Part shown: positions 1 through 59,307 of the stretch, in pieces
Layout: every line of letters starts with the position of its first letter
Numbering within the stretch: the stretch's first letter is position 1
Assembly: GCA_031291675.1 (NCBI GenBank)
Contig: JARLIO010000022.1
Span: 1-64,000 of the forward strand
Length of the DNA: 64,000 nucleotides
Direction: 5' to 3'
Source: Azospirillaceae bacterium
Lineage (GTDB): Bacteria; Pseudomonadota; Alphaproteobacteria; Azospirillales; Azospirillaceae
The notes under the pieces: generated by a model
Databases searched by the model: none
What the model was told of the DNA's origin: nothing
The model's input: the letters and a program-made list of their open reading frames with translations, nothing else
Program-made: the position numbers and the translations under genes

Positions 1-2
1 AG

Positions 3-209
3 GCCAAGGTTCTGCGACGCAAGCTGATCGGCTATTACGGCTACTTCGGCCTGCGTCACTGCCTCCCGGCGCTCAACCACATCAAGTGGCACGTCGGGCG
101 ACTGTGGGTCATGGCACTGCGCCGGCGAAGTCAAAAGCATTACCTCTGGTGGAGCAGCGTTGTTCGCCGTCCGTGGTTCAACTCGCTTCCTGATCCCACA
201 CTTCGGTAA
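3..209 (+). CDS. ltrA: Group II intron reverse transcriptase/maturase, C-terminal fragment
   Basis: Reading in frame from base 3 to the stop at 207-209 gives 68 residues typical of the end of group II intron maturases. There is a KLIGYYGYFGL stretch (family pattern LRGHYQYYG), then a hydrophobic and tryptophan-rich part, then LRRRSQKHYLWW (family pattern LNRRSQ...W), ending in a proline-rich LPDPTLR. This is the X/thumb maturase region that binds intron RNA; reverse transcriptase and any endonuclease motifs would lie upstream. Domain V follows 17 bases after the stop, the normal arrangement when the protein is encoded in domain IV. Whether the full protein is intact cannot be seen. Confidence 0.75.
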   Translation, partial: AKVLRRKLIGYYGYFGLRHCLPALNHIKWHVGRLWVMALRRRSQKHYLWWSSVVRRPWFNSLPDPTLR

Positions 210-226
210 TGAACGTCGAAACCTGG

Positions 227-298
227 GGGCCGGATGCCTTAATTGGGCACGTCCGGTCCTGGGAGGGGGGCGGCCAGCAATGGCTGTCCCTACCTCAC
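227..298 (+). ncRNA. Group II intron domains V and VI and 3' splice end
   Basis: Domain V is at 227-259. A lower stem GGGCCGGA (227-234) pairs with TCCGGTCC (252-259), there is a two-base CG bulge (250-251), and an upper stem TGCC/GGCA closes a short loop. Domain VI follows at 267-290: GGGGCGGCCA pairs with TGGCTGTCCC, with two G-U pairs and a GCAA tetraloop. The tail TACCTCAC (291-298) carries the likely branch A at 292. The catalytic triad at the base of domain V, normally AGC, reads GGC here. The opposite strand has changed to C, so pairing is kept. This is seen directly; whether the ribozyme is active is unknown. Confidence 0.75.
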
Positions 299-300
299 CC

Positions 301-338
301 GGCAGCCCGCGGGCCGACAGCCAAAATGAGAACGGCTG
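301..338 (-). repeat. 38-bp terminal piece of an interspersed repeat (inverted copy of 58039-58076)
   Basis: The reverse complement of these 38 bases is identical to 58039-58076, the left end of a 165-bp element with terminal inverted repeats. The match stops at 338, which is the element's outer end. It also stops at 300, next to the inferred 3' end of the group II intron. The rest of this copy should therefore lie on the far side of the intron, outside the window. Confidence 0.8.
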
Positions 339-56359: not shown

Positions 56360-57949
56360 TTACGACGCTTGTCGTAATGTTCGGTATTTTATCTGGTCAT
56401 TTGCCATTTCCCGGAAGATCGCGTATTTGGAATCATGGAAGGTGGCAGTATTTTCGCGGGGAATGGTGACGGAGGCATCGCCCGACATCCCGATCATCGC
56501 CAGCGGCAGCGATTTGAAATGGCCGCAGGCGGTGGCGCCCAGCATGGCGCTGCCCAGCAGCATCGCCTCGCTCTCGCTGATGATCTCGATCGGCATGCCG
56601 GTGATGTCGGCGAACTCTCGGACCCACAAGGGATTCTTGGCGCCACCGCCGCACAGGCGCACCCGGCGGATGGCAAAGCCATGGCTGTTCATGGTCTCGA
56701 TGATGTGGCGCGTGCCGTAGGCCACGGACTGCAACGCCGCCAGGTAACGGATCGCCAGGCTTTCCAGAGAGTCGTCGAGTTTGAGCCCACAGATCGAGCC
56801 GGTCAGGGTCGGGTCGGCCAACGGCGAACGATTGCCAAGATAATAGCCGAGCAGATGAAAATCCGCGGTTGGGAAACGCACGAGGGTCTCGATCTGCGCG
56901 ATCAACTCGTTGAGGCAGGTGTAGGCGGATACGTCCTGGCGTCGCATTTCGTCCTGGAGCCGGGGATAGGCCGCCGAGTCCCTGATGACAAAGTCGACCA
57001 GCGCACCGGCTGCGCTTTGTCCCCCTTCCGCCAGCCAGTAGCCGGGGATCATCGCGCCGTAATAGGGCCCCCAGATACCGGGAACGAAGTTGAGCGACCG
57101 GTTGGATGCCATATGGCACGCCGAGGTTCCGGCGATCACGGCCAGGGTTTCCTCCGGGGCGTCACCCAAAACGCCAAGGCCACCGGCATGAGCGTCAATC
57201 AGACCGGCCCCGACCACAACGCTCTGCGGCAAGCCCAATTCCGCGGCGGCCTGCACGCTCAGGGTCCCGATCGCCTCACCAGGATCCTTGATCTGGCTGC
57301 CGATCCGTTCACCCTGAAGCAGTTCGAACAGGCCGAGGCTGTCGAAGAACGACGGTGACCAACGTTTCTCATGATTGAGATACGTCCATTTGCAACTGGT
57401 CGTGCAGGAACTGCGGGTCATGCTGCCGGTCGCGCGGAACGTCAAGAAATCGGCGAGATCAAAGAAATGCGCGACACGCTGGTATTGATCGGGTCGATGG
57501 TTTTTCAGCCAGAGGATCTTGGGGATTTCCATTTCCGGACTGATCGCGCCACCGACATATTTCAGGACCTCGTGATTGCCCTGGTTGATCGCCAAGGCTT
57601 CATCGATGGCGCGATGATCCATCCACACCACGACGTTCCATTGATCCTCGTCACCCGGCGAAACCGATGTCGGTGCTCCGTGATCATCCAGGGCCACCAG
57701 GGAGCAGGTGGCATCGAAGCCAATGGCCCGGACATCGGAGGGATGAACGCCGGACTGTCTCATGATCGAGCGCACGGTCGCGCAAACCCCGGCCCAGATA
57801 TCTGCCGACGACTGCTCGGCGTACAGCGGACGGGGGCGATTGAGGCGGATCGGCGCGTCCGCCAGGGCGAACCGGGTCCCAGCCATATCAAAAAGGGCGG
57901 CCCGGACGCTTCCGGTTCCGACATCGACACCAATCGCATAGTCAGTCAT
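56360..57949 (-). CDS. Pentulose kinase, D-ribulokinase-like FGGY
   Basis: The 529-residue kinase is of the FGGY pentulose/ribulokinase group. Features are AIGVDVGTGSVRAALFDMAGT, IGFDATCSLVALDDHG, VVWMDHRAIDEA, GAGLIDAHAGGLGVLG, IAGTSACHMASN and VRLCGGGAKNPLWVREFADI. The TCSLV and MDHRA motifs point to D-ribulose-type kinases rather than L-arabinose-pathway AraB, but the substrate cannot be fixed. It is 133 bases upstream of the LyxK-like gene, so the cluster makes two different ketose kinases. Confidence 0.85.
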   Translation of the reverse strand: MTDYAIGVDVGTGSVRAALFDMAGTRFALADAPIRLNRPRPLYAEQSSADIWAGVCATVRSIMRQSGVHPSDVRAIGFDATCSLVALDDHGAPTSVSPGDEDQWNVVVWMDHRAIDEALAINQGNHEVLKYVGGAISPEMEIPKILWLKNHRPDQYQRVAHFFDLADFLTFRATGSMTRSSCTTSCKWTYLNHEKRWSPSFFDSLGLFELLQGERIGSQIKDPGEAIGTLSVQAAAELGLPQSVVVGAGLIDAHAGGLGVLGDAPEETLAVIAGTSACHMASNRSLNFVPGIWGPYYGAMIPGYWLAEGGQSAAGALVDFVIRDSAAYPRLQDEMRRQDVSAYTCLNELIAQIETLVRFPTADFHLLGYYLGNRSPLADPTLTGSICGLKLDDSLESLAIRYLAALQSVAYGTRHIIETMNSHGFAIRRVRLCGGGAKNPLWVREFADITGMPIEIISESEAMLLGSAMLGATACGHFKSLPLAMIGMSGDASVTIPRENTATFHDSKYAIFREMANDQIKYRTLRQAS

Positions 57950-58038
57950 GATCTCGGTCTCAATTATCCAGCGTTATGATCGCCGAGCCGGCGACGGTCA
58001 GGGGGCACCGCCGCCGGCTCCGGTTCGATCTCCCGGCC

Positions 58039-58203
58039 CAGCCGTTCTCATTTTGGCTGTCGGCCCGCGGGCTGCCGCCCGCACCCGCTCGCGGTGAACC
58101 CCGAATCCCTCTCTATTTTGACAAAAACAAAGGGGTCTGGGGCACGGCCCCCGTTGGGTTTGGGCGAAAGCCCAACGCTTCGTCGCCAAAATCAGAACCG
58201 CTG
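58039..58203. repeat. 165-bp element with terminal inverted repeats (MITE-like)
   Basis: The left end 58039-58057 and the right end 58185-58203 are inverted repeats matching at 17 of 19 bases. Inside are a GCCCGCGGGC palindrome near 58064, a GGGGC/GCCCC stem at 58139-58151 and a TTGGGC/GCCCAA stem with a GAAA loop at 58160-58175. The first 38 bases recur, inverted and exact, at 301-338. No coding region is apparent. It lies in the 287-base gap between the ribulokinase-like and dehydrogenase genes. It could be a non-autonomous transposable repeat or a structured intergenic element. Confidence 0.7.
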
Positions 58204-58236
58204 CTCCCGGCCCGTTCAGGTTGACCGTCGGCGTGG

Positions 58237-59307
58237 TCAGGGGTTCAGCAGAACCTTGACCGATTCCAGCTTTTCCGCCATGGCCATCGCCGCATCGAAA
58301 TCCTCCAGGGCGTACTGATGGGTTACGATGCCCTCGGCGGTCAGCTTGCCGCGCGAGAACAGGTCGATCGCCGTCTCGTAGGAGTAGGGGCCGAGATGCG
58401 ATCCCCGGATGTCCAGTTCCTTGCGGTCGCCGATCACCGACCAGTCGACGGTGGTCGGACCGGAGAACACGCTGAACTCGACAAAGCGGCCGAGCTTGCG
58501 GATCATTTCCAGGCCCTGGATGACGCCATTGGGGTGGCCGGTGGCCTCGATATAGACGTCGCAGCCATAGCCGCCGGTCAGATCGCGCACGATCTTGATC
58601 ACGTCGTCGCGTTTCGGATTCAAAGTGAGGGTGGCACCGAATTTCCGGGCCGTCGCCAGGCGGTCGTCATCCATGTCCAGCACGATGAATTTCCGGGGGG
58701 TCAGCAGGGGAATCACCTGGGCCATGCACAGGCCCAGAGGTCCGGCACCGGCCAGCACCACGACGTCGTCCAGGTCGATATCGGCCCGTCGCACGGTATG
58801 GATCGCACAAGCCATCGGTTCGATGATCGCAGCCTGCTCGTGACTGACGGAATCCGGGATCTTGTGGATGATGCAGGTCTTGGCGAATTTCATGTATTCG
58901 GCCATGCCGCCTTCGGCGATATGGGTCTGGAAGCCGAAGATGTTGTGGACTTCGCACATCCAATACTTCCCGGTTCGGCAGAACTTGCACCTGCCGCAGG
59001 GAACGATCTGCTCGGCAACCACGCGATCGCCGATCGCGACGTCGTGCAGCTCAGCGGCGCCTTCGCCCAGTTCGACGACATTGCCATAGAATTCATGGCC
59101 CGGAACCACCGGAACCTTGACCCAGGGAGAGCATCCGCCCCAGAACATGTCAGCGCCATGATAGGCCTTCACATCACCAGCGCAGATGCCACAGGTCTTG
59201 ACCTTGACGACGACCTCACCGGGTCCTGCCTTCGGCTTGGGGAACCGCGCATCGATCTTGTAATCCTTGGGGCCATGGCAAACGACCGCAGTCATTGTTT
59301 CAAACAT
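58237..59307 (-). CDS. Zinc-dependent polyol dehydrogenase (erythritol/threitol dehydrogenase-like)
   Basis: The 356-residue medium-chain dehydrogenase has the catalytic zinc region CGICAGDVKAYHG and PGHEF. The structural zinc cysteines are in CGRCKFCRTGKYWMC, and the Rossmann motif is LAGAGPLGLCMA with an acidic LDMDDDR (NAD preference). The N-terminus TAVVCHGPKDYK and FWGG string resemble enzymes called erythritol/L-threitol dehydrogenases, but in this kinase context a pentitol such as xylitol, arabinitol or ribitol is as likely. GGAG six bases before the ATG supports the start. Confidence 0.85.
   Translation of the reverse strand: MFETMTAVVCHGPKDYKIDARFPKPKAGPGEVVVKVKTCGICAGDVKAYHGADMFWGGCSPWVKVPVVPGHEFYGNVVELGEGAAELHDVAIGDRVVAEQIVPCGRCKFCRTGKYWMCEVHNIFGFQTHIAEGGMAEYMKFAKTCIIHKIPDSVSHEQAAIIEPMACAIHTVRRADIDLDDVVVLAGAGPLGLCMAQVIPLLTPRKFIVLDMDDDRLATARKFGATLTLNPKRDDVIKIVRDLTGGYGCDVYIEATGHPNGVIQGLEMIRKLGRFVEFSVFSGPTTVDWSVIGDRKELDIRGSHLGPYSYETAIDLFSRGKLTAEGIVTHQYALEDFDAAMAMAEKLESVKVLLNP

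Follow-up and report, generated by a model that had tools for sequence, protein, structure and literature searches.

The window analyzed here, 64,000 nucleotides in length, comprises positions 1-64000 of contig C74 of a 5.87 Mb draft genome in 99 contigs. Toward its right end, two genes are encoded on the minus strand, one for an FGGY kinase (56360-57949) and one for a zinc-dependent dehydrogenase (58237-59307), the operon neighbors that a sequence-only reading of this DNA had named. The dehydrogenase has 80 homologues, from other lineages, in a search of the genome contig collection. Between the two genes lies a 165-bp element (58039-58203, plus strand) whose ends, CAGCCGTTCTCATTTTGGC (58039-58057, plus strand) and CAGCGGTTCTGATTTTGGC (58185-58203, minus strand), match in inverse orientation at 17 of 19 bases, as that reading had noted. 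Among the 63,835 stretches of 165 nucleotides in the window, this is the only one to reach such a match. Perfect 9-bp direct repeats, CTCCCGGCC, abut the element on the left (58030-58038) and on the right (58204-58212) and make its boundaries exact, with CAG...CTG as the outermost bases. It carries no transposase gene, and its size falls below the approximately 600 bp expected of MITEs.

The element is a near-complete palindrome. Either strand is predicted to fold into a single long imperfect hairpin (z-scores of -4.3 for the plus strand and -5.7 for the minus strand), and none of 200 shuffled sequences was equally stable. The central hairpin (58107-58135, plus strand), defined from the folds of both 5' exons of the intron described below, is terminator-like but lacks a U tract. 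The stem with a GAAA tetraloop described earlier (GGGC-GAAA-GCCC) is indeed found within the right half.

One end of the element had also been reported to recur 57 kb away. The recurrence holds, as positions 320-338 match the repeat pattern at 19 of 19 bases, but this is not an isolated end. It is where a second MITE copy in the window terminates; the outer 39 bases of that copy remain (300-338, minus strand; MITE positions 39-1) and adjoin a group II intron, represented by its 3' part (1-299, plus strand; RF00029, 37.5 bits, E 7e-6, below the gathering score of 40). The intron part includes the C-terminal 68 amino acids of the intron-encoded protein (3-206, plus strand) and catalytic domains V/VI (225-298, plus strand). 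The target duplication of this second copy, GTGGTCGCC (339-347), has one mismatch to the duplication of a 5' half on contig C71. Contig C74 begins inside the intron and, going by the matching target duplication, continues on C71.

The element belongs to a high-copy MITE family

The sequence-only reading had offered a MITE as one interpretation, to be abandoned if no further copies turned up. A genome-wide search found many, and the number of copies, the precision of the ends and the 9-bp target duplications all back the MITE interpretation. There are nearly a hundred copies in this genome. When the 165 bases were used as a query, the best 40 of 129 candidates were all 90-100% identical and nearly all full-length, and the forty-first was the reverse strand of a copy already counted. 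A search with 23 bases of the right half as the pattern gave 86 dispersed sites in the genome versus 0 in a reversed control, and the terminal repeat, at up to 3 mismatches, has 168 genome-wide matches versus 16 in the control. A profile search of fetched stretches gave 101 MITE matches, 53 of them near full length, the halves of intron-split copies and the two parts of one broken copy being counted separately. Any two of the 53 are 77-97% identical, with a median of 91.5%. The window copy shares 97.6% identity with the family consensus, in which the terminal inverted repeats match at 18 of 19 bases.

The flanks of the 53 near-full copies carry the same mark as those of the window copy. A 9-bp direct repeat is exact in 29 and within one mismatch in 41, and the duplications of the remaining 12 have two or more mismatches. 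Flanks crossed between different copies gave no exact 9-bp repeat, and among the 53 copies there was no excess of duplications of 4-8 or 10-12 bp. No strong common motif was found among the target duplications. Such 9-bp duplications are the signature of a transposase that would cut its target with a 9-base stagger.

Using gene calls from a simple codon-usage script, we found that 59 of the 60 copies with enough flanking sequence are intergenic. Among the 60, spacers are divergent in 25 cases, tandem in 30 and convergent in 5, and both orientations occur. A bias for divergent spacers was considered and set aside, as it is not significant after allowing for spacer lengths (p 0.057).

A few loci depart from the family pattern. 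In L023/L189 (C42:65455-65514), L047 and L050, MITE copies end near position 61 or 111 and abut non-intron sequence, possibly reflecting other nested insertions or deletions. At L176 2957-3269 (C51:11456-11768) lies a 313-bp element with related terminal repeats and a different left interior, which holds a further inverted repeat; this element is either a second MITE type or the remnant of a parent element. As a whole, the MITE family is unexceptional but well proven, and its sequence is new as far as these searches go.

Distribution in relatives and the search for a parent transposase

Across 39 genomes, including this one, no full MITE copy was found in any of the 38 relatives, and pieces of 23-39 bases occurred in five. 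The family is lineage-specific. The terminal repeat reaches further: at one mismatch or fewer it is present in 5 of 82 genomes of the bacterial family, this one included. In two genomes of one sister genus (G005 and G081) most occurrences are at the ends of contigs, where a multi-copy element that interrupts assembly would be expected to turn up. Five places in G005 (L208, L213, L216, L219 and L222) share 141-188 bp at 96-100% identity; all start with the same 19-bp repeat, have an interior unlike that of the MITE and extend to contig ends. A sequence recognized by a transposase would be expected to occur in this way, as one 19-bp repeat joined to different interiors. A plasmid collection held no match to the MITE, and neither the DNA of the G005 element end nor its 32-amino-acid frame matched anything there. 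Viral contigs held four exact terminal-repeat matches, none of them paired.

The sequence-only reading had called for a transposase gene bounded by the same inverted repeats, and none was found in the draft genome. CAG ends together with 9-bp duplications are linked with IS4- and ISAs1-like families. DDE_Tnp_1 (PF01609) has 4 matches in this genome, none with the repeat at 4 mismatches or fewer. In the sister genus, the same domain was matched 10 times, in two of the three genomes, and none of these matches carries the repeat at that threshold; three of them have ISAs1-like proteins, as judged by reading. Terminal-repeat matches at up to 3 mismatches number 153 in the fetched stretches, and 150 of them fall within MITE matches. 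The other three are both ends of the 313-bp C51 variant and a lone repeat at C9:45616, which has no partner and near which inspection of the reading frames showed no transposase. We infer a parent transposase that may be absent from the draft assembly.

Alternative explanations for the repeated palindrome

Three other readings share features with the MITE interpretation. The element could be a structured RNA, such as a regulatory leader, riboswitch or small RNA, that is repeated by chance, and the sequence-only reading had likewise raised a mobilized intergenic RNA element. The stable fold on both strands and the presence of the GAAA-loop stem would fit an RNA, but a stable fold is also the direct result of the palindrome. 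Compensatory changes were absent from all 52 predicted pairs in an alignment of 28 copies. Against Rfam there was a single match, far below cut-off, and no family reached its threshold. Copies also lie in both orientations and in tandem, divergent and convergent spacers alike. We consider an RNA element very improbable and read the structure as a palindromic DNA element that has decayed since it inserted. The intergenic, palindromic and high-copy character of the family also recalls REP/BIME-type palindromes moved by a RAYT (HUH) transposase. To our knowledge, however, that kind of mobility leaves no target duplication, and the 9-bp duplication within one mismatch in 41 of 53 copies, along with the proper terminal inverted repeats, leaves this reading with next to no probability.

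A transcription terminator or attenuator between the dehydrogenase and kinase genes is a different matter, in that such a role could coexist with a MITE origin. A long hairpin occupies the 287-nt spacer between co-directional genes, and three terminator-like matches were found in 500 bp versus 0.4 expected. Only one of the three, however, is on the operon strand, where it is weak and lies at the edge of the element, the other two being on the opposite strand. The central hairpin has no U tract after it, and the spacer types of the copies do not differ clearly from the distribution of spacer bases. The earlier suggestion of an effect on read-through was not borne out by that one match on the operon strand. 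A terminator role in the operon is possible, though we regard it as unlikely.

A group II intron is nested in MITE copies

The intron at the start of the window is found elsewhere in this genome too. Typed from its ends alone, as its full length is not assembled, it has group II domains D1-D4 at its 5' ends elsewhere in the genome (RF02005, 71.8 bits versus a cut-off of 49) and domains V/VI at its 3' end, the latter at the sub-cut-off score given above. Of its protein, only the last 68 amino acids are assembled; these gave a GIIM match at E 0.19 and no NCBIfam match. This protein end matched nothing in plasmids or viral contigs, and its one match among solved structures was a chance match to a lectin. 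It has matches in 8 of 82 genomes of the bacterial family, this one included, those in the other genomes being 36-46% identical.

A genome search with positions 1-299 gave 14 matches. Thirteen are intron 3' ends, each located at the end of a contig, and the fourteenth is a 39-bp scar in the interior of contig C45. MITE sequence adjoins all 14. At the end of C44 (L139), the last 37 intron bases are tandemly repeated at the junction before the MITE begins. The scar (L042, C45:25501-25710, and L149) is a MITE copy with an intron 3' end, a truncated insertion. A pattern for the intron 5' end has 13 sites genome-wide, and recognizable MITE sequence precedes 12 of them, with the outer MITE end degraded in two; the thirteenth (L204) is preceded by a degraded resemblance only. 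Judged by these junctions, the number of MITE copies that harbor the intron, on either strand, is at least 13.

Only two sites, 5 nt (plus strand) and 8 nt (minus strand) past the central hairpin, account for the 12 recognizable 5' junctions; the hairpin is followed by TCTGG on the plus strand and ATTCGGG on the minus strand. Forward insertions have a one-base ambiguity, an extra G. In the window copy these landing sites correspond to the position after 58140 on the plus strand and that between 58100 and 58099 on the minus strand, and both are empty. Insertion just 3' of a terminator-like hairpin is a trait of group IIC introns, a class to which this intron may belong.

The halves of split MITE copies lie on different contigs because the intron was collapsed in assembly. 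By comparing the 13 5' halves with the 14 3' halves, we could re-pair seven copies through their 9-bp duplications (three exact and four with one mismatch, among them C71-C74), versus fewer than 0.1 pairs expected by chance by our own arithmetic. Three 3' junctions are odd in that they meet the MITE at positions 39, 39 and ~126, and C71-C74, in which ~22 MITE bases are missing on the 3' side, is the only one of them that could be paired. Four insertion sites per MITE had been entertained and were dropped, as all 12 recognizable 5' junctions lie at two sites; the odd 3' junctions are therefore better read as 3'-side deletions.

Discussion

We consider it highly probable that 58039-58203 is a non-autonomous MITE moved in trans, and that the central hairpin of its family later became a landing site for the intron. 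What the element requires in cis is probably the 19-bp terminal repeat, CAGC(C/G)GTT(C/G)TCATTTTGGC, and the transposase would be supplied in trans by an element that is absent or unassembled here. Each insertion would duplicate 9 bp of target, mobility and duplication both being legible in the DNA itself. By this route the MITE is likely to have reached close to a hundred sites, most of them intergenic, within the lineage, one copy presumably landing, without an intron, in the dehydrogenase-kinase spacer. A group II intron would later have taken the central hairpin as its landing site, inserting, as known intron biology suggests, by reverse splicing and reverse transcription.

A bolder proposition, whose chances we judge to be evenly balanced, is that the intron is a MITE specialist that uses the central palindrome as its target from either strand. 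Each transposition of the MITE would then make two new, mostly intergenic sites, the spread of the intron would depend on a DNA-transposing parasite, and some insertions would delete ~22-24 bp from the MITE on the 3' side.

The MITE family described here is lineage-specific, present in high copy and still flanked by intact target duplications. More unusual is the mobile intron, for which this MITE is nearly the sole residence, and the nesting of the two explains many contig breaks in the assembly. With many empty sites and 13 occupied ones on both strands, this is a natural, countable system for studying how group II introns settle on particular hairpins and how a mobile element provides habitat for another.

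The element resembles other bacterial MITEs, such as Correia elements, RUP and MITEAba12, in being short, non-coding, palindromic, high in copy number and intergenic, and in having terminal repeats and a target duplication. The combination of CAGC(C/G)GTT(C/G)TCATTTTGGC with a 9-bp duplication matched none of the named MITE families in the parts of the literature searched.

The nesting has partial parallels. The natural target of the RmInt1 group II intron of Sinorhizobium meliloti is the insertion sequence ISRm2011-2 (PMC5894124), so that there, too, an intron is at home in a multi-copy mobile element; the host of RmInt1 is an IS630-family insertion sequence, whereas the present intron is hosted by a non-coding MITE and enters it on both strands, beside one central hairpin. 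Group IIC introns are described as inserting after terminator hairpins or in attC sites (PMC4424553, PMC8919778). The present intron, which may or may not be of that class, likewise inserts a few bases 3' of a hairpin, but that hairpin comes from one repeated mobile element at all 14 of its 3' ends. Two of nine listed Pseudomonas putida group II introns are at REPs (PMC1525189) and resemble ours in sitting at an intergenic repeated palindrome, a minority situation there and that of nearly all copies here. The 'MITEtron' of Thiomargarita nelsonii is a MITE inside a group I intron (PMC4853749); it also nests a MITE and an intron, and the arrangement is reversed here, with group II introns inside MITEs. 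A term search of a MITE review (PMC10969869) gave no occurrence of 'intron', and we found no report, in the literature searched, of a group II intron with a MITE as its main target. The MITE adds a new family to a known kind of element, and its service as a near-exclusive home for a group II intron is a new form of nesting between introns and mobile elements.
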